Below are positions 9,901 through 23,522 of a stretch of 64,000 nucleotides of DNA, piece by piece. This DNA is from an uncultured Bacteroidia bacterium. GTDB lineage: Bacteria; Bacteroidota; Bacteroidia; Bacteroidales; UBA932. The translations under genes and the position numbers were made by a program. The first letter of the stretch is position 1; the number at the start of each line of letters is the position of its first letter. Location of the stretch: positions 57,205 through 121,204 of the forward strand of contig CADCJX010000003.1 in the NCBI GenBank assembly GCA_902801885.1. The letters run 5' to 3'. The notes below the pieces were generated by a model. That model had not been told where the DNA came from, ran no database searches, and worked only from the letters and a program-made list of their open reading frames with translations.

Positions 9901-9977
9901 TGGCTCCTCAAGCAGGACTTGAACCTGCGACCCCCTGATTAACAGTCAGGTGCTCTAACCAACTGAGCTATTGAGGA
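9901..9977 (-). tRNA. tRNA-Asn (GTT)
   Basis: The minus strand folds as a complete cloverleaf. The 7 bp acceptor stem is TCCTCAA/TTGAGGA, the D arm GCTC...GAGC, the anticodon stem CCTGA/TCAGG with loop CTGTTAA (anticodon GTT), and the T arm contains GGTTCAAGTCC. Discriminator G and CCA are encoded at 9901-9904. It has its own promoter and a terminator abutting the CCA. Confidence 0.96.
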
Positions 9978-10070: not shown

Positions 10071-10078
10071 TACCTTTG
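10071..10078 (+). promoter_or_regulatory. -7 element upstream of the peptidoglycan recycling operon
   Basis: TACCTTTG matches TAnnTTTG perfectly, 21 nt before the HU-like start codon. The only TTTG runs upstream (10053-10056, 10065-10068) are not at the usual 19-21 bp spacing, so the -33 element is weak or absent. It lies back to back with the tRNA-Asn promoter. Confidence 0.5.
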
Positions 10079-10099: not shown

Positions 10100-10825
10100 A
10101 TGGATATTGACCTTTTCTCGGACATAGTCAAGAATTTGATAACCCAGAATGATGAAGTTGCGCTTCCAGGCCTCGGGACCTTCGTCTCAGAGTTGATGCC
10201 TTCAACTTTCTCCGATAAGGGTTACACGATCAATCCACCTTACAGGCGGCTCTCTTTCCGACAGCGCTGGAACGAAGATGACACCCTCCTCATAGATTTC
10301 TATTCACAGGCCAACGGAACTGACATGGAGGCTTCCAGGAAGATTCTGGAAGGCTTCATCGATGGCCTCCGGGAAACCCTCCAGACCAAGAAAGCAGTTC
10401 AGCTTCCTGGCCTTGGAAGGTTGAGGGCTACGAAAGAGAATACTTTCTTTTTCATTGCCGATGAGGATCTGGACATTTATCCTTACGGGTTCGGACTTGA
10501 ACCTGTCTCCTTGAAGACTCATGAAGAGACTCCCGAGGAAGTCTCTACGGCGGTCCAGGAACTCCATCAGATAGTCTCAGAACCCGTCCCTGCTGAACCG
10601 GCTGTACCTGCAGAACCAGCTGCTCTGCCTGCATCGGCAGAACCGTCAATCACAGAGATCCGAAGAAGGCGGCTTGGCTGGCCTGGTATATTCCTGATCG
10701 TCATCGGGACCGTCCTGCTTGCATTGATAGTTTTCACGGTAGTTGCCCGTCTTAATCCTGGAGTATTCGATTCCATCCTCTACTCGCCTGAAGAACTTCA
10801 AATAATAAATTATCCGTTGAAATGA
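10100..10825 (+). CDS. HU-like (CCDC81-type) domain protein with C-terminal membrane helix
   Basis: 241 residues. The N-terminal 140 or so contain two HU-related modules, each with the loop signature: LPGLGTFV near residue 30 and LPGLGRL near 100. This matches the bacterial CCDC81 HU family. A Pro/Ala/Glu-rich linker follows, then a hydrophobic helix (IFLIVIGTVLLALIVFTVV) near residues 200-220. Related Bacteroidota proteins often end in a SPOR peptidoglycan-binding domain; here there are only about 20 residues after the helix. The topology predicts a cytoplasmic HU domain tethered to the inner membrane. It is the first gene of the long operon and overlaps the next by 4 nt. Confidence 0.75.
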   Translation: MDIDLFSDIVKNLITQNDEVALPGLGTFVSELMPSTFSDKGYTINPPYRRLSFRQRWNEDDTLLIDFYSQANGTDMEASRKILEGFIDGLRETLQTKKAVQLPGLGRLRATKENTFFFIADEDLDIYPYGFGLEPVSLKTHEETPEEVSTAVQELHQIVSEPVPAEPAVPAEPAALPASAEPSITEIRRRRLGWPGIFLIVIGTVLLALIVFTVVARLNPGVFDSILYSPEELQIINYPLK

Positions 10826-12507
10826 GAGATTTGATCATGGGCCCAGGCATCGCCCATTCCATTCTTGTTTTTGCTGTAGTCATCGCAACCGGCCTCTGGC
10901 TCGGACGCTTCAAGATAAAAGGAGTCTCCATAGGATCGACATGGATCCTGTTCGTAGCAATCATATTGAGCCATTTCGGAGTCAGGGTCGACACGACTGT
11001 CATGAATTTCATGAAAGACTTCGGTCTGATCCTGTTCGTCTTCTCCATCGGTCTCCAGGTAGGCCCGGGCTTTTTCCATTCTTTCAAGAAAGGAGGCTTC
11101 ATGATGAATCTCCTTGCTGTCTGCATGGTCCTGCTTGCTGTGGGAGTCACTGTGGCCATACATTTCATCACCGGTGAGGACCTTCGCACCATGACTGGCG
11201 TCATGTCGGGAGCAGTCACCAACACTCCGGGACTCGGTGCCGCCCAGCAGACGATGGGAGACATCATGCGTTCCGAAGGCGTCCTTGCCTCGGAAGTTAC
11301 GAGTGCCACCTCCGGACTTGCATCAGCTTATGCTGTCGCTTATCCTCTGGGTGTTCTTCTTGTAATTGCCTTGATAATCGTCTTCAAGTCGTTGTTCAAA
11401 GTAGATCTGGGGAACGAAAAGGCAGAACTTGACAAGGAAGAAGATACCGGCAGCCAGGCTCGCAGGATGCATTGCGAAGTCGAGAATCCTGCGATATTCG
11501 GAGAAAAGCTTTCAGTTGTCATCAAGGACGTAGGAGAGGATCTGGTGGTCTCCAGGATGCTCCGCGGAGACGAGATTTCGGTTCCCGGTCCGGATACCGT
11601 CCTACACCAGGGAGACAAACTGCTGATCGTAACATCCCAGGAAGATGTAGACCACATCCGGATACTGTTCGGAAAAGAAGTCCCCATGCACATCGCTGAC
11701 TGGCAGAAGATGGACACCAAGACCGTCTCCAGGAGGGTGATCGTCACCAAGCCTTCGCTCACCGGCGTCAAACTGAAGGATCTCAACATCAGGGCACATT
11801 ACGGAGTGAATGTCACCAGGATCACGAGGACCGGCATCGACCTGGTCGCAAGGCCCAACCTTTTTATCCAGATGGGTGACAACCTCCAGATTGTCGGCCC
11901 TGAGTCAGGAGTCAATGCGGTTTCCGATCTTGTAGGAAACACCATGACCGGTCTGGACAAGCCCAATCTTATTCCTATATTCTTCGGAATAGCCCTTGGT
12001 GTGATCTTCGGATCGCTGCCCCTTAAGTTCCCCGGCATTCCGCAGCCGATCAAGCTCGGGCTTGCAGGAGGTCCGCTCATCATTGCAATCCTCCTGGGCT
12101 ATTTCGGACCAAAGTGGAAGATTACCATCTACACTACCAAGAGTGCCAACATGATGCTCCGGGAGATAGGAATAGCCTTCTTCATGGCGGCAGTCGGTCT
12201 CGGCGCAGGTCAGAACTTCGTGAGTTCAATCCTAGGCGGAGGCTACTGGTGGATCCTTTACGGAGCGCTCATTACCTTCATCCCGGTCCTTACGATCGGC
12301 CTGATCGCAAGATATGCCTGCAAGCTCAACTTCTACCAGATCTGCGGTCTCATTTCTGGCGGAACTACCGATCCTGCGGTGCTGGCCTTTACCCAGGGCG
12401 CTTACGGAACTGATTATCCTTCTGTCAACTACGCCACCGTCTATCCTCTGTCGATGTTCATGAGGGTCCTTGTTGCCCAGTTGCTGGTACTATTGGCCAT
12501 GGCCTGA
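10822..12507 (+). CDS. AspT/YidE/YbjL-type transporter with central RCK_C domains
   Basis: 561 residues. Two membrane blocks of about five helices each (residues 1-190 and 375-561) flank two TrkA-C (RCK_C) domains, recognisable by HCEVENPAIFGEKL and VRIT-like ligand-binding strands. The duplicated pore signature reads GAVTNTPGLGAAQ in the first half and GLISGGTTDPAVLAF in the second. Members of the aspartate-alanine exchanger family are known or presumed anion/amino-acid antiporters, and RCK_C domains usually bind small ligands. Its position ahead of peptidoglycan recycling genes suggests a peptidoglycan-derived amino acid or anion as substrate, which is inference only. Confidence 0.85.
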   Translation: MRDLIMGPGIAHSILVFAVVIATGLWLGRFKIKGVSIGSTWILFVAIILSHFGVRVDTTVMNFMKDFGLILFVFSIGLQVGPGFFHSFKKGGFMMNLLAVCMVLLAVGVTVAIHFITGEDLRTMTGVMSGAVTNTPGLGAAQQTMGDIMRSEGVLASEVTSATSGLASAYAVAYPLGVLLVIALIIVFKSLFKVDLGNEKAELDKEEDTGSQARRMHCEVENPAIFGEKLSVVIKDVGEDLVVSRMLRGDEISVPGPDTVLHQGDKLLIVTSQEDVDHIRILFGKEVPMHIADWQKMDTKTVSRRVIVTKPSLTGVKLKDLNIRAHYGVNVTRITRTGIDLVARPNLFIQMGDNLQIVGPESGVNAVSDLVGNTMTGLDKPNLIPIFFGIALGVIFGSLPLKFPGIPQPIKLGLAGGPLIIAILLGYFGPKWKITIYTTKSANMMLREIGIAFFMAAVGLGAGQNFVSSILGGGYWWILYGALITFIPVLTIGLIARYACKLNFYQICGLISGGTTDPAVLAFTQGAYGTDYPSVNYATVYPLSMFMRVLVAQLLVLLAMA

Positions 12508-12520
12508 TCTCCTGAAGCTT

Positions 12521-13111
12521 ATGTTTGAACTGATCTACCCCTACGACCCTGCTCCGGTCCTCCCGCTTCCGACTGCCGACAATCCTGGCAGCCATGCCCG
12601 TCCGGGCTGTGAAATGGTGCCTGTCGTCGAAGAAAACGGGCTGGTGATCGGCCAGGCTGCGAGAATAGATGTCCATGGGGGAACGATGCTCCTGCATCCG
12701 GTCATCCATCTTCACATCATAAACCGTAACGGGGAACTATTCATCCAGAGGCGTTCTTTCCGCAAACGTTCCTTCCCCGGGATGTGGGACACTGCTGTCG
12801 GAGGACATATCGACTACGGAGAGCTGTTGGAGACGGCTCTGTTCAGGGAAGCTTCAGAGGAACTTGGTTTCCGCGGCTTCAACCCCGTCTACCTGAAGAC
12901 CTATCTTTGGGAATCTCCCAGGGAAAGGGAACTAATCAATGTCTTTGCTGCGGTGGGTAATTTCCACCTGGATCCTCACAATGAAGAAGTCCTTGAGGGC
13001 CGCTATTGGAGCATGGAGGAGATAGAAGCGTCCATCGGCAAGGGCCTGTTCACCCCTAATTTCGAACAGGAATTTGCCTCCATAAAGGACACTTTGCTCG
13101 CCCTCCTATGA
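12521..13111 (+). CDS. Nudix hydrolase (YfcD/IDI-like)
   Basis: Starting at ATG 12521, 14 nt after the transporter stop, gives 196 residues; the longer frame from 12470 would begin inside the transporter. The full Nudix box is present between about residues 90 and 112 (GHIDYGE, seven residues, then REASEELGF). The N-terminal part (EMVPVVEENGLVIGQA) resembles the YfcD and isopentenyl-diphosphate isomerase-like branch. It should hydrolyse a nucleoside diphosphate-linked compound. Its stop overlaps the start of the DUF4922-SpoIID gene (ATGA), so a UDP-sugar or related pyrophosphate is an attractive but unproven substrate. Confidence 0.88.
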   Translation: MFELIYPYDPAPVLPLPTADNPGSHARPGCEMVPVVEENGLVIGQAARIDVHGGTMLLHPVIHLHIINRNGELFIQRRSFRKRSFPGMWDTAVGGHIDYGELLETALFREASEELGFRGFNPVYLKTYLWESPRERELINVFAAVGNFHLDPHNEEVLEGRYWSMEEIEASIGKGLFTPNFEQEFASIKDTLLALL

Positions 13112-15318
13112 CAGACCAGGATCTCGAAAAATTCATCGGCGACCAGCTATCCGTCTGGCCTCTGGCTTCAGAGAACTATCGTGACCTGAAGAAGGCCAGG
13201 GTGAAACACCTCAATCTGGGCGGAGTGAAGGTGAAGGTCCAATTGAACCCTTCCCGGAAGATTTCGTCCGATGCCGCCCTCGATCCTGCATCCATCGCCG
13301 CCAGGCCTTGTTTCCTCTGCCTTGAGAACAGGCCGGCAGAGCAGTATCACATTGATTTTGAAGGCAGGAAGGGCCGGAAGTACCGTGTCACCCTCAATCC
13401 GTTCCCGATATTCCCGCATCATCTGGTCATCTCCAGCACCAAGCACACTCCTCAGTCCATCTGGCACCGTTTCCAGGACATGCTGGACTTCACACGCTCC
13501 TGCCGGAGTTTCCTGTGCTTTTACAACGGTCCCAGGAGCGGGGCATCCGCTCCCGACCACATGCATTTCCAGGCATGCCCCATGGATCTCATGCCACTCG
13601 CTGTCCATGTAGAAGGTCTTTTGGGAAAGGATCATTCTGCAGACCTTGAGTATCTTTCAAGTGTCAAGGAAGCCAGGCTTTTCCATCTGAAGAGGTATGC
13701 CAAGGGAGTTTTCGTCTTGCATGCGTCCACTCCGAAGTCGATGGCAAAGCTGTTTTACCGCCTGCTGGACTGTGCCCCTGTCAAGGAAGGTGATCCCGAG
13801 CCTCGGATCAACATCCTGAGCTGGTTCTCGGAAGGGGAGTACAGGGCTGTGGTTATCTTCCGTGAAAAGCATCGCCCTCACAATTATTTTTCACAGGGGC
13901 CTGACCATCTTGCCATGAGCCCCGGTTGTGCTGACATGGGTGGTGTATTCATTACCACGAGTGAAGAGGATTTCAACAAGCTCGGTCCAGGCCTTCTGGA
14001 AGGAGTCGTGGACGAAGTCTGCATCTCCGGAGAAGAAGAGGGCGAGATAATCTGGCGCCTTACCAGGGACCAGGAAAAGCTGGAAGTCGGCATCATGTCG
14101 GGCCAGGACATTGATTTTGAGATAATTTCAGATGGCGCAGGCAGGCAGAGGGTCTCCTACAAGGATGGAAGGATTTCCTACAACGGTGTTCTCTACGATG
14201 AGCTTTATTTCGAAGCCGTTACCGAATCCACGATGTTTGCAGAACCTTCCTTCGTTCTATATGGCGTTACTATAGGAGTCGGTTTCCATTGGGAGCGGAA
14301 GGTCGACCAGAAATTCGCAGGAACCCTCAAGTTCATAGCTGCAGAGGGGAAGGTCTGGGCAGTGAATATCATCGGCGTCGAGGATTACCTTCTGAGCGTG
14401 ATTTCCTCCGAGATGAAGGCATCTGCAGGATTGGAGTTCCTCAAGGCCCATGCAGTCATTTCAAGGTCATGGGTGATGTCCAGGATAGCCCAGCGTGGAA
14501 GGCATCAGGAAACTCATGAAGAGGTTTCTCCCATTGAGGGTGAGGAATATATCAAATGGTTCGACCAGCAGGACCATGCCTTCTTCGACGTCTGCGCCGA
14601 TGACCATTGCCAACGCTATCAGGGGCTTACCATGGCAGTTGGGGACACCGTCCGCAAGGCGGTGGACCAGACCTGGGGCCTTGTCCTTAAATATGGTGAC
14701 GAGCTTTGCGACGCCCGTTTTTCCAAATGCTGCGGCGGAAGGATGGAGCTCTTCAGCACATGCTGGGAAGAAAAGGATCCGCCGTACCTCAAATCGCTCC
14801 CGGACACTCCTTCCTGGGAGGAAGGGGAGACCCCGTTCTGCGACACTTCAGATGAGACAGTCCTTTCCCAGGTCCTCAATGACTATGACCTCGAGACCAA
14901 GGATTTCTACAGGTGGAAGGTTGAATATTCAAGGAAAGACTTGTCGGAACTTGTCCGACGCCGTTCAGGAATCGATTTCGGCACGATTGATGATCTTGTC
15001 CCTGTGGAAAAGGGACCTTCCGGCCGTGTGAAGAGGCTCCTGATCAGAGGTGAAAGGAAGAATCTTGTGATAGGTAAGGAGCTGATAATCAGGAAGTGGC
15101 TGTCGGAGTCACATCTGAAGAGCTCCGCCTTCGAGGTCAAGTGGGAAGGGGACAGGCTCGTCCTGGAGGGCTCAGGATGGGGACATGGAGTCGGCCTCTG
15201 CCAGATAGGGGCTGCCGTGATGGGCTCGAAAGGCTACACCTTCGATGCAATACTTTCGCACTACTATCCCGGCTCCGAACTCGGGCCGCTGAATAAACCG
15301 AATACTGATGAAAGATAA
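13108..15318 (+). CDS. DUF4922 (HIT-like phosphorylase) - SpoIID/LytB fusion without signal peptide
   Basis: 736 residues with two parts. The N-terminal DUF4922 domain (about 1-300) belongs to the HIT / GDP-galactose-phosphorylase-like group and shows the catalytic HxHxQ at His151, His153, Gln155. Conserved cysteines (PCFLC) and NPFPIFPHH precede it. The C-terminal SpoIID/LytB domain (about 370-730) has the catalytic glutamate at Glu435 (VISSEM), the Gly-rich KCCGGRME metal-site region and the GWGHGVGLCQIGA signature. SpoIID domains cleave glycan strands lacking peptides as lytic transglycosylases and normally work outside the cytoplasm. No signal peptide or helix is visible here, so the protein appears cytosolic. 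Coupled by overlap to Nudix upstream and AmpG downstream. Confidence 0.85.
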   Translation: MTDQDLEKFIGDQLSVWPLASENYRDLKKARVKHLNLGGVKVKVQLNPSRKISSDAALDPASIAARPCFLCLENRPAEQYHIDFEGRKGRKYRVTLNPFPIFPHHLVISSTKHTPQSIWHRFQDMLDFTRSCRSFLCFYNGPRSGASAPDHMHFQACPMDLMPLAVHVEGLLGKDHSADLEYLSSVKEARLFHLKRYAKGVFVLHASTPKSMAKLFYRLLDCAPVKEGDPEPRINILSWFSEGEYRAVVIFREKHRPHNYFSQGPDHLAMSPGCADMGGVFITTSEEDFNKLGPGLLEGVVDEVCISGEEEGEIIWRLTRDQEKLEVGIMSGQDIDFEIISDGAGRQRVSYKDGRISYNGVLYDELYFEAVTESTMFAEPSFVLYGVTIGVGFHWERKVDQKFAGTLKFIAAEGKVWAVNIIGVEDYLLSVISSEMKASAGLEFLKAHAVISRSWVMSRIAQRGRHQETHEEVSPIEGEEYIKWFDQQDHAFFDVCADDHCQRYQGLTMAVGDTVRKAVDQTWGLVLKYGDELCDARFSKCCGGRMELFSTCWEEKDPPYLKSLPDTPSWEEGETPFCDTSDETVLSQVLNDYDLETKDFYRWKVEYSRKDLSELVRRRSGIDFGTIDDLVPVEKGPSGRVKRLLIRGERKNLVIGKELIIRKWLSESHLKSSAFEVKWEGDRLVLEGSGWGHGVGLCQIGAAVMGSKGYTFDAILSHYYPGSELGPLNKPNTDER

Positions 15319-16609
15319 GAAGTCACCCTGGTACTGGATTCCTACGGTCTATGCGGCCGAAGGTCTCCCCAACATCATCGTAACCGGTGTCTCGGTCGTC
15401 ATCCTGCTCCAGATGGGGATGACCAACACCCAGATCGCCCTCTACACCAGCTGGCTCCAGCTTCCATGGATCATAAAACCCCTCTGGAGCCCGTTCGTGG
15501 ACATATTCAAGACAAAACGTTGGTGGGTCATCGCGATGCAGATGCTCCTGGGCGCCGCTTTCGCGGGAGTCGCTTTCACGATCGGCTCTTCATGGTGGTT
15601 CCAATGCATCATGTTTTTCCTGTTCCTTATGGGTTTCTCGAGCGCGACTCACGACATCGCTGCGGACGGGTACTACATGATTGAACTTGACGATCACGAC
15701 CAATCTTTCTTCGTAGGAATAAGGAATACTGTCTACCGCCTTGCGGTGATCTTCGGCAACGGAGTCCTCGTCCCGGTGGCCGGACTGATCCAGAAGGCTT
15801 CCGGAGGCAGGGTGGCTTTTTCCTGGAGCCTGGTGTTCTTCGGACTTGCCGGCCTTTTCCTGGCCATAGCCCTCTATCACAGGTTCTACCTTCCTGAAAG
15901 CGCCAACGACAAACCGCGTAAGCTCTCAGCCAGTGAAACCTGGAGGACCCTCGGGCGTTCTTTCTCGACTTATTTTACCAAGTTCCCCTTTAAGGAAACC
16001 GTAGTAGCCTTGCTCTTCCTCCTGCTCTTCCGTTTCCCGGAGGCCCTGCTTACCAAGATGAGCCCTACCTTCCTGCTGCGTCCTGCTTCTGAAGGAGGAC
16101 TTGGACTCAGCGCCGAACAGTACGGAATCGCTTATGGGACTATCGGAGTCATCGGACTGATGCTCGGAGGCATCCTGGGTGGCATCCTTGCCAGCCGTGA
16201 CGGTGTCAAGAAATGGCTCTGGCCCATGGTCCTTGCCCTGACACTCCCTGACTTGGTCTACGTCTACCTAAGTGCAGGACATCAGGTCGGGATAGGTCTC
16301 GTGACCGCCTGCATATTCGTAGAACAGTTCGGCTACGGTTTCGGCTTCACGGCGCTTACCCTTTACATGTTGTATTTCAGCCAGGGAGAGTTCAAGACCT
16401 CGCATTACTCCATCTGTACCGGCATCACCTATCTCGGGCTCATGCTTCCTGGGATGGTCTCCGGCTATCTTGCCGACAGGCTTGGCTACCATCAGTTTTT
16501 CGTGGTTGTGATGGCTTTCTGCCTGGTCACTTTCCTGGTCACCGCCTTGATTAAGATCGATCCTTCCTTCGGTAAGGCTTCCAACTCAAAAGAAAAGAAA
16601 GATGAATAA
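15308..16609 (+). CDS. ampG: AmpG-like muropeptide permease (MFS)
   Basis: 433 residues with about 12 membrane helices. The AmpG-type start (YAAEGLPNIIVTGVSVVILLQ) and the helix-4 motif SSATHDIAADGYYM parallel the TQDIAxDAY motif of AmpG. AmpG carries GlcNAc-anhydroMurNAc peptides across the inner membrane with protons. The start overlaps the SpoIID gene by 11 nt, and NamZ starts 8 nt before its stop. That order fits import of cell-wall fragments for cytosolic recycling. Whether it imports anhydro-muropeptides or free MurNAc cannot be told from sequence. Confidence 0.85.
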   Translation: MKDKKSPWYWIPTVYAAEGLPNIIVTGVSVVILLQMGMTNTQIALYTSWLQLPWIIKPLWSPFVDIFKTKRWWVIAMQMLLGAAFAGVAFTIGSSWWFQCIMFFLFLMGFSSATHDIAADGYYMIELDDHDQSFFVGIRNTVYRLAVIFGNGVLVPVAGLIQKASGGRVAFSWSLVFFGLAGLFLAIALYHRFYLPESANDKPRKLSASETWRTLGRSFSTYFTKFPFKETVVALLFLLLFRFPEALLTKMSPTFLLRPASEGGLGLSAEQYGIAYGTIGVIGLMLGGILGGILASRDGVKKWLWPMVLALTLPDLVYVYLSAGHQVGIGLVTACIFVEQFGYGFGFTALTLYMLYFSQGEFKTSHYSICTGITYLGLMLPGMVSGYLADRLGYHQFFVVVMAFCLVTFLVTALIKIDPSFGKASNSKEKKDE

Positions 16610-17855
16610 GAAGTCTTTTTGGATGGCTGCATTGACCATGTTCGCAGCCCTCACCCTAAATGCCCAGGTCAAGCCAGGCATCGAAGTCCTTGAAGAAAGT
16701 GGTTTCCGTGGTTTGGAAGGCAAGAGGGTTGGCCTTGTCACCAATCCGAGCGGAGTCGACAGCAGGCTTCGTTCAACCATCGATATCCTCAATGCCGCAC
16801 CAGAGGTCAACCTTAAGAAACTGTTTGCCCCAGAGCATGGCGTCAGGGGAGACATCTACGCTGGAGGCCGTGTAGAGGATGGTAAGGACCCGGTGACCGG
16901 ATTGCCGGTTTTCTCGGTCTATGGGGCTCACCGCAAACCGACTCCGGAGATGCTTTCTGGATTGGATGTAGTCATATACGACATACAGGATGTCGGTAGC
17001 CGTTCCTACACCTTTATCAGCACGCTCGGTCTTGTGATGCGTGCCTGTGCGGAGCAGGATATAGAAGTCATGGTCCTTGACAGGCCTAATCCCCTCGGGG
17101 GAAACAAAGTGGAAGGCTGCCTGGTCGAAGACGGCTTCCATTCCTTTGTCAGCGAGTTCAAGATTCCCTACATCTATGGCCTTACCGTCGGCGAACTTGC
17201 AGTGCTGATCAATGAAGAAGGGCTTAACTGTGGCGAAAAGGGGAATGAGGCTCCCCTCAAGTGCAAGCTTGAAGTGGTCCCGATGGAGGGGTGGAACAGG
17301 AATATGCTTTATGCAGACACCGGTCTGCCATGGGTTCTCCCATCCCCGAATATTCCATATCCCCAGACCGCGATAGACTATCCTTCCGCCGGCATCGCCG
17401 GAGAGTTCCAGGGCTACCTGAATATAGGGATAGGCTACACCCTTCCTTTCGAAGTCTTTGCCGCAGAATGGATCGATGCAGAAAAGCTCAAGGCTCGCCT
17501 GGAAAGTTACGATATCCCCGGGGTGGCGTTCAGGACAATCCATTTCAAGCCGTTTTCCGGGAGCTCCCAGGGCAAGATGCTCCATGGAGTGCAGTACCAT
17601 TATACAGATTTCGAGGCTGCATGTTGTACCCTCACCCAGTTTTACGTGATGCAGGCCGTAAACGAACTTTATCCATCGAAAAACCCCTTCAAGCTATCCC
17701 AGGGGCGTCTTGCCATGTTCGATAAAGTTTGTGGTACGGATTATGTAAGAAGGACTTTTGAGAAGCGACTGAAAGTCGAAGACATCAAAGACTTCTGGTC
17801 CAAGGATGTCGAAGATTTCAAGGAACTCTCCAGCAAGTACCTGATGTACGATTGA
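16602..17855 (+). CDS. namZ: NamZ-type exo-beta-N-acetylmuramidase (DUF1343)
   Basis: 417 residues with a cleavable signal peptide (MKK-type start to LTLNAQ). Family blocks appear in order: KRVGLVTNPSG, LFAPEHGVRGD carrying the conserved Glu-His, SVYGAHRKPTPEML, DVVIYDIQDVGSRSYT, VLDRPNPLGG and PNIPYPQTA. DUF1343 enzymes characterised in Bacillus and Tannerella remove MurNAc from the non-reducing end of peptidoglycan fragments. It should act in the periplasm. Neighbours AmpG, AmgK and MurU supply transport and cytosolic conversion of the released sugar. Confidence 0.9.
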   Translation: MNKKSFWMAALTMFAALTLNAQVKPGIEVLEESGFRGLEGKRVGLVTNPSGVDSRLRSTIDILNAAPEVNLKKLFAPEHGVRGDIYAGGRVEDGKDPVTGLPVFSVYGAHRKPTPEMLSGLDVVIYDIQDVGSRSYTFISTLGLVMRACAEQDIEVMVLDRPNPLGGNKVEGCLVEDGFHSFVSEFKIPYIYGLTVGELAVLINEEGLNCGEKGNEAPLKCKLEVVPMEGWNRNMLYADTGLPWVLPSPNIPYPQTAIDYPSAGIAGEFQGYLNIGIGYTLPFEVFAAEWIDAEKLKARLESYDIPGVAFRTIHFKPFSGSSQGKMLHGVQYHYTDFEAACCTLTQFYVMQAVNELYPSKNPFKLSQGRLAMFDKVCGTDYVRRTFEKRLKVEDIKDFWSKDVEDFKELSSKYLMYD

Positions 17856-17875
17856 TAAGCTAAAACTAAGGTGAT

Positions 17876-19450
17876 ATGAAAAACATCTACAACATTGCAA
17901 TCGCATCAATAGTGGCTATGGCCATGGTTGCATTCCCTGCGGATTCATATTCCCAGGCAAGACGTTCTTCCGGCTCCTCCAGGAGCACCACCTCTTCACA
18001 GAATAGTTCTTCGATGAGGGGTTCCTCATCATCAAGTTCCAGAAGCAGTGCTTCTGTCTCCAGAAGTTCATCTTCAGCGCCCAGAAGCTCTTCCTCTGTT
18101 TCCAGAAGTTCTTCTTCCAGGGGTTACTCTTCCGGCAGCAGTTCCAGGAGTTCTGCGACGGTTTCCCGTCCTCAGGTGAACACCGGTTCTTCTTCCAGAA
18201 GTTCCGCCACCACTTCCAGGAGCTCGGCTTCTTCCGCCAGAAGTTCGTCTTCCGGCAGCAGTTCCAGGAGTTCCGCGACGGTTTCCCGTCCTCAGGTGAA
18301 TCCCGGTTCTTCTTCCAGAAGTTCCGCAACCACCTCCAGAAGCTCGGCCTCTTCCGCCAGAAGCTCGTCTTCCGGCAGCAGTTCCAGGAGCTCCGCGACG
18401 GCTTCCCGTCCCCAGGTGAATCCCGGTTCTTCTTCCAGAAGCTCCGCCACCACCTCCAGAAGCTCTGCTACCTCTTCCAGGAGTTCTTCCCAGAGGATAG
18501 CCCAGCCGATAGGATCTTCTTCCAGGAGCAGTTCCGCCCGCGGCACTGCTGACAATTCCAGAAGGGAGCAATCCCAGAGGGTCGGCAATGCCACCAGGAA
18601 CGGACTCACCACCTACGACAAGAACATGTCTCGCGCCGGAAACGACGTGATGCGTGAAACCAGGAATGACTTCATGAGGATCGGCGAGGACAGGAATGTC
18701 CACAGGATCCCTCCGAGGGAGCGCGACTTCCTTGCCTATGACCGTCCGGGACACTTCTGGGGTCACCATACTCACTACTACGGTTACAGGGTCAATTACC
18801 TGCCTCCTCGTTACAGGAGACTCCACTATTGGGGAATTGACTACTGCTTCTACAACGGCATCTATTATAGGCCTTACAATGGCTTCTGGGTGATCTGCAG
18901 ACCTCCTTTCGGAGTGTGCATCGACCTGGCAATCTCAGACCTCGTGTTCTCGACAGTCCGCTTCGCGTACTATCACAACACCTACAGGCTCTACAATGCC
19001 ATCGACGCCAACAACAGGATCATCGACGAGCAGAACCGCATCATTGCGCAGAATAACGCAACCATTGCGGCACAGAACAGCTCCTTCGCCCTGAACACTA
19101 CCAGGGCCAACGATGCCTACAGCCTGGCTAACAGGCTCGGACTGGCGCAGAGCTACGCCTACGCCAACCAGCCTTACTACTACCAGGACGGCGTGTTCTA
19201 CATCGTAAATTCCAACGGTCAGTATGAGGTCATCGTCCCTCCGGCTGGAGCCCTCGTAGAGGAACTGCCTGACGACTATGACATCATCACTCTCGACGGA
19301 GTGGATTACTACAAGGTCGACGACACTGTCTACCGCACTACCCTCGTGGAAGGCAAGCCTTACCTCGAAGTCCTCGGACAGATGTACGGCAAGCTGGCCC
19401 AGAAATACAATTACGACTCCAACGGAGTCAAATACAGCAATCTCTATTAA
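17876..19450 (+). CDS. Ser/Arg-rich exported protein of the DUF6515 type
   Basis: 524 residues. Signal peptide to about residue 27 (PADSYSQA), then about 190 residues made almost wholly of Ser and Arg with short SSSRSSAT blocks and a 40-residue tandem repeat carrying RPQVNPG. After that comes a Tyr-rich globular part (YYRPYNGFWVICRPPFG), a coiled stretch (RIIDEQNRIIAQNNATIAAQN) and a C-terminal domain with paired YYxDGVFY and VDYYKVDD segments. This matches DUF6515 proteins, whose function is unknown. The basic low-complexity arm could bind anionic wall or DNA. It is embedded between namZ (20 nt) and the AmgK fusion (6 nt), which ties it to wall recycling. Confidence 0.75.
   Translation: MKNIYNIAIASIVAMAMVAFPADSYSQARRSSGSSRSTTSSQNSSSMRGSSSSSSRSSASVSRSSSSAPRSSSSVSRSSSSRGYSSGSSSRSSATVSRPQVNTGSSSRSSATTSRSSASSARSSSSGSSSRSSATVSRPQVNPGSSSRSSATTSRSSASSARSSSSGSSSRSSATASRPQVNPGSSSRSSATTSRSSATSSRSSSQRIAQPIGSSSRSSSARGTADNSRREQSQRVGNATRNGLTTYDKNMSRAGNDVMRETRNDFMRIGEDRNVHRIPPRERDFLAYDRPGHFWGHHTHYYGYRVNYLPPRYRRLHYWGIDYCFYNGIYYRPYNGFWVICRPPFGVCIDLAISDLVFSTVRFAYYHNTYRLYNAIDANNRIIDEQNRIIAQNNATIAAQNSSFALNTTRANDAYSLANRLGLAQSYAYANQPYYYQDGVFYIVNSNGQYEVIVPPAGALVEELPDDYDIITLDGVDYYKVDDTVYRTTLVEGKPYLEVLGQMYGKLAQKYNYDSNGVKYSNLY
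18131..18480 (+). repeat. 120 bp in-frame tandem repeat, about 2.9 copies
   Basis: Copies begin at 18131, 18251 and 18371, each starting TCCGGCAGCAGTTCCAGGAG, giving an exact 120 bp period (40 codons). Differences between copies are mostly synonymous changes (TTC/CTC, TCT/TCC). This points to recent duplication with length flexibility under protein-level selection. Confidence 0.9.
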
Positions 19451-19456
19451 TTCTGA

Positions 19457-20872
19457 ATGGACAAGCTCAACGATTTATTCGAAAGCTACACAGGAAAGAA
19501 ACCTACAGAAACGGAAGAGTTGAATTCTTCCGGCAGTAACAGGAGATATTTCCGCCTCAAGGGCGGAAATATCTCCATTATAGGTGTAGTCGGTACCTCC
19601 CTTGAGGAGAACAAAGCCTTCATCAGTCTCAGCCGTCATTTCCGTGCGAGAGGCATCAACGTCCCCGAGGTTTTTGCGGTTTCAGACGATGGAATGCGTT
19701 ACATCCAGGAAGACCTAGGAGACGACCAGCTCTACAAGCTGGTCTCCCATGGAAGGGATAGCGGGGAATACAGCCCGGAGGAGAGCCGTCTTCTGTGCCG
19801 GGCCATGGCCATGCTTCCTAAGATCCAGTTCGAAGGAGCCAAGGAACTGGACTGGAATGTCTGCTATCCTGAACCTGCCTTCAATGAGAGGATGATCATG
19901 TTCGACCTCAACTATTTCAAGTACTGCTTCCTTAAGGCGACGGGACTTGAATTCAACGAGGTCAGGCTTCAGGAGGATTTCGAGCGCCTTCGTGACGATC
20001 TGATGCAGGACATGGGCGAAACCTTCATGTACAGGGATTTCCAGGCCAGGAATGTGATGGTCCGTGATGGTGAACCGTATCTCATAGATTTCCAGGGTGG
20101 GAGAAGAGGCCCCATCTACTACGACGTGGCATCCTTTGTCTGGCAGGCCAGGTCTCGCTACCCGGAGCAGCTGAGGAAGGAGATGGTCCGTACTTACCTT
20201 GAGTCTCTGAAAGAATACGTTCCGGTCGAAGAGGAGCATTTTCATGACCGTCTCAGGCTTTTCGTCCTCTTCAGGACACTCCAGGTGCTGGGGGCCTATG
20301 GTTTCAGGGGATATTTCGAAAAGAAACCACATTTCCTGGCAAGCGTTCCCTATGCGCTAAGCAACCTTAGACGCCTGCTCCAGAAGCCTTTCGATTCCTA
20401 TCCCTATCTCAACGGCATTCTCACCAAGCTCACCACGATGTCGCAGTTCAACAACATCGTCGAGGACAAACGGTTGGAGGTCAGCATATTCAGTTTCGCC
20501 TACAAGAAAGGGATCCCTGTCGACCGTTCTGGCAACGGAGGTGGTTTCGTCTTTGACTGCCGAGCCATCAATAACCCGGGGAAGTTCGAGTACTACCGTC
20601 AGTTTACCGGCTTGGACCAGGAAGTGATCAAGTTCCTCGAGGATGACGGGGGAATCACAAAGTTCCTCGACAATGTCTACGCTATGGTTGAGAACCATGT
20701 CAAGTGCTTCATGGAGAGGAAGTTTACCCATATGCAGGTCTGCTTCGGCTGCACAGGTGGCCAGCATAGGTCCGTCTACTGTGCAGAGCACCTGGCTGCC
20801 CGCCTGGCGGAAAAGTATGACATAAAGATCACGGTGACCCACAGGGAACTGGACATTGAAAAAATCCTCTAG
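19457..20872 (+). CDS. amgK: AmgK-like amino-sugar kinase fused to RapZ C-terminal domain
   Basis: 471 residues. The first 320 or so form an aminoglycoside-phosphotransferase-fold kinase. Its catalytic loop is YRDFQARN (Asp194, Asn199, with Tyr192 at the usual His) and its Mg-binding segment is LIDFQGG. AmgK phosphorylates MurNAc or GlcNAc at the anomeric carbon. Residues about 330-471 match the C-terminal domain of RapZ: FVFDCRAINNPG, FTGLDQEV, and GCTGGQHRSVY with Cys432. In E. coli that domain binds glucosamine-6-phosphate. MurU starts on the base after its TAG stop. Kinase identity rests partly on this neighbour. Confidence 0.85.
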   Translation: MDKLNDLFESYTGKKPTETEELNSSGSNRRYFRLKGGNISIIGVVGTSLEENKAFISLSRHFRARGINVPEVFAVSDDGMRYIQEDLGDDQLYKLVSHGRDSGEYSPEESRLLCRAMAMLPKIQFEGAKELDWNVCYPEPAFNERMIMFDLNYFKYCFLKATGLEFNEVRLQEDFERLRDDLMQDMGETFMYRDFQARNVMVRDGEPYLIDFQGGRRGPIYYDVASFVWQARSRYPEQLRKEMVRTYLESLKEYVPVEEEHFHDRLRLFVLFRTLQVLGAYGFRGYFEKKPHFLASVPYALSNLRRLLQKPFDSYPYLNGILTKLTTMSQFNNIVEDKRLEVSIFSFAYKKGIPVDRSGNGGGFVFDCRAINNPGKFEYYRQFTGLDQEVIKFLEDDGGITKFLDNVYAMVENHVKCFMERKFTHMQVCFGCTGGQHRSVYCAEHLAARLAEKYDIKITVTHRELDIEKIL

Positions 20873-21610
20873 ATGAAGGCGATGATCTTTGCTGCCGGCC
20901 TCGGAACAAGGCTCAGGCCATTGACGGACACTATGCCCAAGGCTCTTGTACCGGTCGGAGGGGAACCGCTTCTCTACCATGTCGCGACGAAGCTGAAGGG
21001 TGCCGGGTTCGACGATCTTGTGATCAATATCCACCATTTCCCTGACATGATCAGGGAATATGTCCATCTCCAGGGAGATTTCGGAATCAGAGTCTCTTTC
21101 TCGGACGAAAGTGATTTGCTGCGTGAGACCGGGGGAGGAATACGTCATGCAAGGCCTTTCCTCGAAGGCGGGAACTTCCTGGTGCACAATGTGGACATAC
21201 TCTCTGATCTCGACTTGAGGTGGTTTATCTCACAGTCGAAGCCAGGCGCTCTGGCCAGCATCCTGGTCTCGGAGAGAAAGACCCAGAGATACCTCCTGTT
21301 CGACCGGGAAATGCGGCTTGTCGGATGGACAAATGTGGCCACCGGAGAGGTCAAGACTCCGTACGATGGTTTGGAACTGTCTGAATGTCGCAAATTTGCT
21401 TTTGACGGAGTACATTTGATTTCTGACAGAATATTCACTATATTTGATGATGATGGCTGGGGAGAGAGGTTTTCCATCATTGATTTTTACATCAATGAAT
21501 GCGCCAAACATCCTGTCTACGGGATCGTCGCAGACGGCCTGAGGATGATGGATGTCGGCAAGGCCGGGACACTTAATGAAGCGGAAGCATTTTTATCATC
21601 ACTCAAATAA
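20873..21610 (+). CDS. murU: MurU-like MurNAc-1-phosphate uridylyltransferase
   Basis: 245 residues with a nucleotidyltransferase signature ([20 protein letters not shown]), a substrate-binding [11 protein letters not shown] block and the metal site NVDILSD, where Asn replaces the more usual Asp two residues before Asp. Length and motif spacing agree with Pseudomonas MurU, which makes UDP-MurNAc from MurNAc-1-phosphate and UTP and so bypasses de novo synthesis. The gene directly abuts the kinase. A general sugar-1-phosphate nucleotidyltransferase is the alternative, but the context favours MurU. Confidence 0.85.
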
Positions 21611-21618
21611 CACACATT

Positions 21619-22065
21619 ATGGCAAAATCATCATTCTGGTCCGAATTCAAGGACTTCGCTATGAAAGGCAATGTCATTGACATGGCTGTCGGTGTGGTCA
21701 TCGGCGGTGCCTTCGGCAAAATCGTCACTTCCCTCGTGAGTGACATCATCATGCCTCTGGTAGGCGCTCTTTGCGGCGGACTCAACTTTACAGACTGGAA
21801 GTGGGTCATCAGCAAGGCTGTCGAGGAAGGCGGAGAAGTAATCAAGCCTGAGGTCGCCCTCACATGGGGTAATTTCCTCCAGGTCATCTTCGACTTCATT
21901 ATCATCGCTCTCTGCATCTTCATGGTGATCAAGGCCATCAATAAGGCAAAGTCACTCTCCGAGAAGAAAGAGGAAGCTCCTGCAGAGCCCGAGGCTCCCG
22001 CACCCAAGCCGGATGACGTAGTACTTCTCGAAGAGATCCGCGACCTTCTCAAGAAGCAGAACTAA
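21619..22065 (+). CDS. mscL: Large-conductance mechanosensitive channel MscL
   Basis: 148 residues with the MscL pattern: amphipathic N-terminal helix ([24 protein letters not shown]), pore helix TM1 with small residues ([18 protein letters not shown]), periplasmic loop, TM2 ([21 protein letters not shown]) and a charged C-terminal bundle helix ([12 protein letters not shown]). It releases solutes under membrane tension. It lies 8 nt after murU and ends the operon. A protective role when the wall is being turned over is plausible. Confidence 0.95.
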
Positions 22066-22073
22066 ATTGCTGA

Positions 22074-23522
22074 TCAGCGTTTTACAGCCCTGACGACTTT
22101 ATAGCCTGTCAGGGCTATTATTATGCTCATCAACGGACTGATAAGGTTGAAAAAACAGTAGGGGAGATAGGTGATCGTGGAAACTCCCAGGATCGTGGAC
22201 TGCGTCATTCCGCAGCTGCTCCAGGGGAACAAGGGGGAAGTAACGGTCGCCGAGTCCTCCACGGCACGGCTGAGAAGCCTTGCTTCGTATCCTTCCTTCT
22301 CATAGACGTCCTTGAATATGCTCGAAGTCAGGATGATTGAAAGGTACTGGTCGGAAACGATGCCGTTGAGGGACGTACCGGTGACAACCGTAGAGGTCAC
22401 AAGGCCTACGCATGACCTGCTGAAGGAACGGATGAAAGAAGCTATGATCTTCAGCATGCCGCTTGCTTTCATGGAAGCACCGAAGCACATGGCGCAGATG
22501 ATCAGGTACACGGTGTTGAGCATTCCTGTCATGCCTCTGGATGTAACCAGCTGGTTGACTTCAGGATTGCCTGTTTCCAGAGAAACGGTGTCATAGACCG
22601 TCTTGACGATTCCTGTGAACATCACCTTCCACCGGGTGCCTTCCACTGCCGCAGACGAACCGATCCCTTCTATCACCGAAGGCTGGAATACCACGGCTGC
22701 AATGGCTGCAAGAACTGTAGAAAGTGCAAGGACCACGATGGCGGGCATCTTCCTGGCGATCATTATTCCTGTGAGCAAGGGGACTATCAGAAGCCAGGGA
22801 GTAATCGTGAAATTTTCTGACAGGACCGTGGTGAATGCCGTGATGTTGTTGGAATCCGTACCGTCATGTGACAGTCCCAGGACAAGGAAGATAACGAGGG
22901 TGATGCAGATCGAGGGGACCGTCGTGAAGAACATGTAATGGATGTGCTTGAACAGGGGAACCTTGTTCATCGACGAGGCTAGGACGGTGGTGTCCGACAT
23001 GGGAGATATCTTGTCTCCGAAATATGCTCCCGAGATGATGGCGCCGGCGATAAGTCCGTCGCTGAAGCCTTCGGCCTTGCCGATGCCAAGGAGTGCAACA
23101 CCTATGGTGGCGATGGTGGTCCATGAACTGCCTATCATCAGCGAAACCAGGGCACAGATGACACAGGCCGTAAGAAGGAAGACCTTTGGGCTTATGATCT
23201 TGACTCCGTAGTAGATGAAGGTGGGGACTATCCCGCTCATTGTCCATGTCCCGGAGATGGCTCCGATGAGGAAGAGTATGACAAGGGCTACCGTGACATC
23301 TCCGATGTTGCTCTTAAGGGCTTCTTCGAATTCGTGCCATGGAACCTTGAACAGCCACATGGCCAGCCAGATACAGATTCCGGATGAGAAGAGCAGTGCG
23401 ACTTGGCTTGCGCCCATGATGGCATCACTTCCGAATATGCTGATGTCCAAAGCCAGCAGGATGACAAGCACAATGATGGGGATGAGGGAGATGGCCAGTC
23501 TGGACAGTTTTCTTTTCTTCAT
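22074..23522 (-). CDS. nhaC: NhaC-family Na+/H+ antiporter
   Basis: 482 residues and about 12 membrane helices. Typical NhaC-family stretches are present: ISGTWTMSGIVPTFIYYG, SLMIGSSWTTIATIGVALLGI, GDKISPMSDTTVLASS and SATVTSPLFPWSSCGM. Members exchange sodium (or malate/lactate with sodium and protons in some subgroups) across the inner membrane. It stands alone, converging on mscL with 8 nt between the stops and diverging from the NigD-like gene. Confidence 0.88.
   Translation of the reverse strand: MKKRKLSRLAISLIPIIVLVILLALDISIFGSDAIMGASQVALLFSSGICIWLAMWLFKVPWHEFEEALKSNIGDVTVALVILFLIGAISGTWTMSGIVPTFIYYGVKIISPKVFLLTACVICALVSLMIGSSWTTIATIGVALLGIGKAEGFSDGLIAGAIISGAYFGDKISPMSDTTVLASSMNKVPLFKHIHYMFFTTVPSICITLVIFLVLGLSHDGTDSNNITAFTTVLSENFTITPWLLIVPLLTGIMIARKMPAIVVLALSTVLAAIAAVVFQPSVIEGIGSSAAVEGTRWKVMFTGIVKTVYDTVSLETGNPEVNQLVTSRGMTGMLNTVYLIICAMCFGASMKASGMLKIIASFIRSFSRSCVGLVTSTVVTGTSLNGIVSDQYLSIILTSSIFKDVYEKEGYEARLLSRAVEDSATVTSPLFPWSSCGMTQSTILGVSTITYLPYCFFNLISPLMSIIIALTGYKVVRAVKR
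22086..22116 (+). terminator. Possible operon-end hairpin within the 3' end of nhaC
   Basis: A perfect 9 bp stem (AGCCCTGAC / GTCAGGGCT) with a 13 nt loop lies just beyond mscL and is followed by ATTATTAT on the plus strand. The T-tract is poor and the element lies inside nhaC codons, so termination of the recycling operon here is tentative. Confidence 0.4.

Follow-up and report, generated by a model that had tools for sequence, protein, structure and literature searches.

A putatively cytosolic SpoIID protein tied to AmpG in Bacteroidota, a candidate for the anhydro-sugar step of peptidoglycan salvage

The window described here is a stretch of 64,000 nucleotides of DNA from an uncultured bacterium of the order Bacteroidales. 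Between positions 10100 and 22065 it carries ten genes that appear to serve the salvage of peptidoglycan sugars. One of them joins a DUF4922 domain to a domain of the SpoIID/LytB family and is followed by genes for an AmpG-type permease, NamZ, an AmgK-type kinase and a MurU-type uridylyltransferase. The core of this arrangement is already known. What is new is a clade of cytosolic-type SpoIID proteins that goes together with AmpG, shows an anticorrelation with AnmK and is a candidate for the missing step in the use of the anhydro sugar.

The boldest reading, to which a probability of roughly 0.4 is given, is that a SpoIID clade found across the Bacteroidota relocated to the cytosol in a single event and took on the role of an anhydro-muramidase. 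This hydrolytic, non-kinase enzyme would replace AnmK and supply the AmgK/MurU branch as well as the MurK/MurQ branch, in several lineages as part of one chain with a domain resembling diadenosine tetraphosphate (Ap4A) phosphorylase and, in Prevotella-type chains, also with a family 2 glycosyltransferase (GT2). The narrower statement, which is preferred here, has about an even chance of being right: that the operon of the window is a salvage unit ending in the AmgK/MurU anabolic branch, in which cytosolic SpoIID opens 1,6-anhydro-N-acetylmuramic acid (anhydroMurNAc) in place of AnmK. The anhydro-opening function is suggested by the lack of an evident signal peptide, the intact catalytic and zinc-binding residues, the co-occurrence with AmpG and the anticorrelation with AnmK.

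The conserved core and its tie to AmpG

The first-pass annotation of the window had proposed a salvage operon for peptidoglycan sugars with an under-described member, and the gene content supports this. It had also taken the gene order to be conserved, which is true of the DUF4922-SpoIID-AmpG-NamZ core and fails for the order as a whole. Among 32 loci of the window's genus, counted by eye and in several cases ended by contig ends, the Nudix gene is present in 29, HU in 25, NamZ in 24, DUF6515 in 20 and AspT in 10, and AmgK-MurU-MscL follows in three (L107, L121 and L141). The contiguous AmgK-RapZ/MurU/MscL tail is confined to the window's species and three congeners. In a genome of another family (L129), AmgK-RapZ-MurU lies 5.7 kb from the core; an AmgK match is present in 54 of 61 relatives.

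A second set comprised the best 80 of 594 listed loci of named Bacteroidota, the Bacteroides query being taken first. Bacteroides ihuae proteins served as probes for GT2, MurT, MurK and MurQ, and PF01869, which is unspecific for MurK, was excluded from the counts. At these best 80 loci SpoIID is accompanied by AmpG at 69, by GT2 and DUF4922 at 67 each, by NamZ at 39, MurK at 33, MurT at 29 and MurQ at 28. AmgK, MurU, Nudix, HU, AspT, DUF6515 and MscL were found at none of the 80 (E-value 1e-5, within the fetched flanks). With three of 32 congener loci and none of these 80 carrying it, the tail was rejected as part of a conserved ten-gene salvage route. The SpoIID fusion had been listed as one odd neighbour among five, and the comparison singles it out as the conserved and informative member.

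The widely kept core is the one already known from the ampG operon of Tannerella forsythia, where lytB-ampG-ybbC-murTKQ are co-transcribed (PMC5388701; this and the other papers cited were available in excerpt). That ampG-murTKQ operon (Tanf_08345-08385) has the SpoIID (lytB), AmpG and NamZ (ybbC) genes in the same order as the window, and the AmpG of the window, set among the same genes, is a relative of the T. forsythia AmpG, which is functional. The T. forsythia locus contains nine genes in the published operon order, including GT2-DUF4922-SpoIID-AmpG-NamZ, with SpoIID directly before ampG; from its position, the second 'gtf' of the operon is probably the DUF4922 gene. DUF4922 and SpoIID are separate genes in T. 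forsythia and the tail is MurT-MurK-MurQ, whereas in the window the two are fused and the tail consists of AmgK-RapZ, MurU and MscL. No MurT-MurK-MurQ tail is found at the window locus. The same widespread core is thus continued by an anabolic tail in the window and by a catabolic one in Tannerella and Bacteroides. Since N-acetylmuramic acid (MurNAc) is the starting point of both tails, it is presumably what the core supplies.

An order-level sample, in which 24 other families were represented by one genome each, was searched with the window's own AmpG. All eight genomes with a strong SpoIID have a strong AmpG, and the 16 lacking SpoIID have no strong AmpG (Fisher 1.4e-6); two of these 16 gave weak AmpG matches, at 24-26%. 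Within the genus (37 genomes) AmpG is present in 29, all of which have a whole SpoIID, in 27 as judged by motifs and in two (G248 and G261) by match range. Five of the eight congeners that lack AmpG (G251, G252, G264, G265 and G274, with six loci) retain the gene with its SpoIID half shortened and the Glu and GWGHG motifs gone. The other three show no match (G256 and G277) or fragments near a contig end (G271). Since the HxHxQ motif of DUF4922 is kept at all six eroded loci, the erosion appears to be aimed at SpoIID. A tree built from the DUF4922 half in 31 rows of the genus, without L144 and L146, calls for two independent losses of SpoIID. One of the five genomes, G274, has two eroded copies of the fusion on different contigs (L136 and L137); its listed contamination is 6%.

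It is quite improbable that envelope genes were joined here by shared transcription alone, as in any ordinary operon. No clear link to wall salvage is seen for HU, MscL, AspT or DUF6515, and the order is lost outside the genus in the loci examined, as that explanation would have it; however, it does not account for a SpoIID-AmpG link that extends across the Bacteroidales (the 69 of the best 80 of 594 named loci) and reappears in gene loss. The mechanism proposed below does not account for HU-CCDC81, AspT/YidE, Nudix, DUF6515 and MscL. A search of the open-access literature for SpoIID and AmpG in connection with Bacteroidota turned up a single paper, on Chlamydia.

Outside the genus the surroundings of SpoIID vary. 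In groups f17 and f35 (L045, L055 and others) the genes after it are often those of a glycosyltransferase, a BatA/von Willebrand factor A protein and an HflX-type GTPase rather than AmpG. In several genomes of groups f15 and f31, SpoIID-AmpG is followed by a fusion of a glycoside hydrolase family 3 (GH3) N-acetylglucosaminidase-type domain to a beta-lactamase-family domain (L048:4767-7811, minus strand; cluster c16).

Architecture, active site and location of the SpoIID half

The SpoIID half scores 173.2 bits against the SpoIID/LytB profile TIGR02669 (cut-off 83.3) and 135.7 bits against the sporulation SpoIID equivalog TIGR02870, below its cut-off of 234.75. By the tests run it belongs to the SpoIID/LytB domain family and falls outside the exported and sporulation enzymes. 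The catalytic Glu and four Cys/His residues do not vary in either of two alignments, one of 28 fused sequences and one of 14 that mostly stand alone. On alignment to chains of the Protein Data Bank (PDB), and by spacing and count, E435 and the Cys/His sites match E101 and H134/C140/H145/C146 of the Clostridioides difficile enzyme, in which E101, C140 and H145 are required for activity in vitro (PMC6221140). The window protein shares the fold, catalytic Glu and C. difficile-type zinc site of the SpoIID/LytB lytic transglycosylases (Bacillus anthracis 4rwr, C. difficile 5i1t). Unlike them, it has no evident signal peptide, is fused to DUF4922 and is tied to AmpG.

In 25 of 29 homologues from across the phylum an ATG stands no more than seven residues ahead of the conserved N-terminal motif, too close for a signal peptide to fit. 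The window protein gave no export signal by a simple hydrophobicity score, used in place of a dedicated predictor. By this score a hydrophobic N-terminus (at least 1.8) is found in 13 of 20 paralogues and in three of 80 named cytosolic-type proteins. In a quick tree, one branch (SH-like approximate likelihood ratio test, 99) separates 27 chosen cytosolic-type rows from all 20 paralogues. We infer that these proteins form a Bacteroidota clade of lytic-transglycosylase-type enzymes in the cytosol.

The SpoIID of Waddlia yields anhydro products from sacculi and mainly non-anhydro products from denuded glycan (PMC6635528), showing that a SpoIID-type active site can use water. The family enzymes studied cut glycan strands (PMC6635528, PMC6221140), which weighs against anhydro-opening and leaves room for an alternative in which cytosolic SpoIID cuts longer or peptide-free imported glycan at its bonds between MurNAc and N-acetylglucosamine (GlcNAc), as the secreted enzymes do, while some other enzyme handles anhydroMurNAc. 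The strict tie to AmpG would fit this too. It is nevertheless unlikely, though of the alternatives the one to be taken most seriously: AmpG of T. forsythia imports disaccharides (PMC7670621), in which there is no MurNAc-GlcNAc bond, and the AnmK pattern is left unexplained. That the SpoIID half is a non-catalytic sensor or scaffold, binding anhydro-muropeptides and regulating DUF4922 or uptake, would agree with its fusion to a nucleotide-handling fold and with the tie to AmpG, but is very unlikely given the invariance of the catalytic Glu and zinc ligands in both sets of sequences.

Strong SpoIID matches (above 300 bits) occur in 36 of 247 Bacteroidota genomes, where the gene is usually apart from DUF4922. 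In the window's genus the two form one gene, and HxHxQ is found in the best-match frame at 31 of the 32 loci (L146 being the exception), six of which have an eroded SpoIID. The best 80 of 594 named loci also include long chains, which measure 751-794 residues in nine cases and 1251-1333 in another nine; HxHxQ and the SpoIID motifs are present in all nine of the shorter kind and in all three of the longer kind that were re-read. The 1251-residue chain of Segatella buccae (L206) has Pfam matches to Glycos_transf_2, DUF4922 and SpoIID. Prevotella-type bacteria have the DUF4922 and SpoIID motifs together in one chain, about 1250-1300 residues long, at L206:7562-11314, L200:6761-10654 and L220:7436-11326.

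The DUF4922 half has the fold and the HxHxQ motif of the Ap4A phosphorylase/GalT superfamily and, in contrast to yeast Ap4A phosphorylase Apa2, ADP-glucose phosphorylase and GalT, is fused to SpoIID. It is probably a nucleotidyl-transfer or phosphorylase domain, with a role that anhydro-opening does not explain. GT2, DUF4922 and SpoIID could instead act as a unit for synthesis or remodelling, building or trimming a cytosolic glycoconjugate made from muropeptide sugar, with recycling as a by-product. The joint presence of GT2 and DUF4922 beside SpoIID (each at 67 of the best 80 of 594 loci), their union in the 1251-residue chain and a group 1/family 4 glycosyltransferase near SpoIID at 15 of 34 phylum loci (cluster c1, one member Pfam-tested) argue for such a unit. 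Yet GT2 is absent from the window locus and present at only nine of the 32 congener loci, and where AmpG is lost the catalytic part of SpoIID goes too but DUF4922 keeps its motif, so that the parts separate; on balance a glycoconjugate unit is improbable. DUF4922 is not mentioned among the top-listed open-access papers matching SpoIID or DUF4922.

Trade-off with AnmK and the proposed route

SpoIID is anticorrelated with AnmK across the Bacteroidota sample. Among the 247 genomes AnmK is present in 15 of 36 with SpoIID and in 156 of 211 without it (p 3e-4). Neither gene is found in 55 genomes, all but one (G004) belonging to a single family, f18. Outside f18 (54 genomes) AnmK is present in 156 of 157 genomes without SpoIID as against 15 of 36 with it, and 192 of these 193 genomes carry one gene or both (p 2e-17). 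The order set gives one of eight against 12 of 16 (p 0.008). In a set of 28 genomes with AmgK above 100 bits, a limit set by us, AnmK occurs in two of 12 with SpoIID (G132, and a weak match in G216) and in all 16 without (Fisher 5e-6). Of the 15 such genomes that lack a strong MurQ, seven have SpoIID and none of these has AnmK, while eight lack SpoIID and all have AnmK (p 1.6e-4). Only two of the 37 congeners have AnmK, both among the five with an eroded SpoIID. One genome that lacks SpoIID, G223, has AnmK alongside NamZ, AmpG, the GT2 cluster and DUF4922. Strict mutual exclusion of the two was ruled out, both being present in 15 of 36 genomes. In f18, MurQ matches are only weak and 53 of the 54 genomes have weak AmgK-like kinase matches of 40-80 bits, below the 100-bit limit.

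The genome of the window (2.46 Mb, 31 contigs, 99% complete, four NamZ_N matches) has no AnmK match. The remark in the first-pass annotation that no anmK was visible therefore extends to the whole genome. The companion remark on murQ is correct for the operon only, as a full-length MurQ gene, the only one, lies on contig C5 beside a gene for a MurK-like kinase. T. forsythia, an oral bacterium and MurNAc auxotroph, likewise has no predicted AnmK, and of its anhydro-sugar strategy it is stated that it 'remains to be explored' (PMC7670621), and our own search of its genome gave no AnmK match. Its AmpG imports GlcNAc-anhMurNAc and GlcNAc-MurNAc, and its growth on GlcNAc-anhMurNAc is slightly impaired (PMC7670621).

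In the proposed route, based for its first steps on family knowledge and the T. forsythia work, NamZ and other hydrolases would cut wall glycan outside the inner membrane and AmpG would import GlcNAc-anhydroMurNAc. The cytosolic SpoIID half would then use water to open the 1,6-anhydro bond of anhydroMurNAc, either free or within the disaccharide, so that reducing MurNAc is formed with no phosphorylation step. AmgK would convert MurNAc to MurNAc-1-phosphate and MurU would form UDP-MurNAc from it; elsewhere, MurK/MurQ would route the same MurNAc into the catabolic branch. The Pseudomonas route, in which AnmK and MupP are needed before AmgK (PMC5371407), shares AmpG import and the conversion by AmgK and MurU to UDP-MurNAc. 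It differs in that the genome of the window lacks AnmK and that cytosolic SpoIID is proposed to give MurNAc directly, replacing AnmK and, ahead of AmgK, the need for MupP. E. coli K-12 without anmK is reported to secrete anhydroMurNAc (PMC5371407).

Several points weigh against this route. We know of no SpoIID-family protein that acts on anhydroMurNAc. AnmK coexists with SpoIID in the 15 of 36 phylum genomes (one of them, G216, with a weak match), including Bacteroides ihuae, and in seven of 40 named SpoIID genomes tested, so replacement is not strict. Family f18 has neither gene and was set aside after the data were seen; all Fisher values ignore kinship, and the AmgK-positive and non-f18 subsets were likewise picked after seeing the data. 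Two independent losses in the genus are too few for a tree-aware test, and the other three congeners with an eroded SpoIID (91, 80 and 88% complete) also lack AnmK. A distant type of AmpG could have escaped the search with the window's own protein, and in groups f17 and f35 SpoIID is mostly not beside AmpG. GT2 is linked to SpoIID as tightly as DUF4922 and shares a single chain with it in Segatella buccae, for which a simple anhydro-hydrolase does not account. Finally, T. forsythia grew poorly on free anhMurNAc (PMC7670621), though import may be limiting.

If anhydro-opening by SpoIID is correct, it would be a new wall-recycling reaction in which a lytic transglycosylase fold is re-used inside the cell, and it would help to tell gut bacteria that keep anhydro-muropeptides from those that release them. 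A candidate gene beside ampG makes the T. forsythia question testable, and the same AnmK gap is seen in many Bacteroidales (33 of the 40 named genomes with cytosolic-type SpoIID, their completeness not given). No anhydroMurNAc hydrolase was found by title or abstract opening in the open-access literature searched, and the available part of the MurK paper (PMC10465942) mentions neither AnmK nor AmgK.

Operon layout, gene names and a second wall-sugar locus

The ten open reading frames (Table 1) all start with ATG and contain no internal stops. As the first-pass annotation had it, they lie on one strand with tight spacing, the successive gaps being -4, +13, -4, -11, -8, +20, +6, 0 and +8 nucleotides, and its names agree with the Pfam matches for all ten products. 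A box of the -7 type, TAnnTTTG, lies upstream at 10071; no canonical Bacteroidales -33 box was seen at the usual distance. A converging reading frame follows at 22074, directly past the end of the operon. Together with the tRNA-Asn gene on the opposite strand, the box and the converging frame mark the cluster as a stand-alone unit, and the gene spacing suggests a single transcript.

Table 1. Features of the operon and its upstream boundary, in window positions
Feature	Position	Strand	Basis or remark
tRNA-Asn, upstream of operon	9901-9977	-	bounds cluster
HU-CCDC81 double-domain protein, hydrophobic stretch at C-terminus	10100..10825	+	Pfam PF18175, PF18174; stretch read from translation
YidE/AspT-type transporter	10822..12507	+	NF003007 631 bits, cut-off 449; Pfam Asp-Al_Ex/TrkA_C
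Nudix hydrolase	12521..13111	+	Pfam NUDIX; NCBIfam isopentenyl diphosphate isomerase best, YfcD next, both below cut-off
DUF4922 half of DUF4922-SpoIID gene, Ap4A-phosphorylase/GalT-like domain	13108..14058	+	HxHxQ at residues 151-155
SpoIID/LytB half, from about residue 318	14059..15318	+	Glu435 catalytic; His490, Cys496, His500, Cys501 presumed zinc ligands
AmpG-type muropeptide permease	15308..16609	+	TIGR00901 160.3 bits, top-ranked NCBIfam model, below cut-off 350; Pfam MFS/BT1
NamZ exo-beta-N-acetylmuramidase, N-terminus hydrophobic	16602..17855	+	NamZ_N and NamZ_C (PF07075 282 bits, PF20732 131 bits), both above cut-off
DUF6515 protein, Ser/Arg-rich, N-terminus hydrophobic	17876..19450	+	PF20125
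AmgK-type anomeric kinase fused to RapZ C-terminal domain	19457..20872	+	PF01636, PF22740; RapZ structure 5o5s 4.8e-14; 3csv
MurU-type uridylyltransferase	20873..21610	+	NF045761 124 bits, best-ranked, below cut-off 250; PDB 4y7t first, 8hhd (named MurU) second
MscL mechanosensitive channel	21619..22065	+	TIGR00220 147 bits, cut-off 71

AmgK, MurU and AmpG all score below the curated NCBIfam cut-offs, and their names are putative, given by rank and context. The kinase has a domain of the aminoglycoside phosphotransferase type (PF01636, 3csv) and reaches 64 bits against the AmgK equivalog NF045759, whose cut-off is 550; it is called AmgK from its rank and its adjacency to MurU. AmgK and MurU of T. 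forsythia have been expressed in an E. coli strain (PMC13041923).

The RapZ C-terminal domain occupies positions 20450-20869, and in two genomes (G180 and G210) kinase and RapZ are separate genes. RapZ of E. coli binds glucosamine-6-phosphate, and the fusion of this domain to the kinase may serve to detect an amino-sugar phosphate, which suggests feedback by such a compound. No paper in the open-access literature searched names RapZ and AmgK together.

A second wall-sugar locus, unlinked to the operon, lies on contig C5 of the same genome (L229, G000:C5:90001-109503). Its genes are, in order, a GH3 glycosidase, a TonB-dependent receptor, SusD, an Exo_endo_phos protein, NamZ, DUF6259, a sodium:solute symporter, the MurK-like kinase and MurQ. 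The kinase is 35% identical to Bacteroides MurK and has no Pfam match at 1e-5; the MurQ is 62% identical to its counterpart. In the operon itself, the HU-CCDC81 protein (10100-10825), near the core in 25 of the 32 congener loci, may tie wall salvage to the chromosome or to division.

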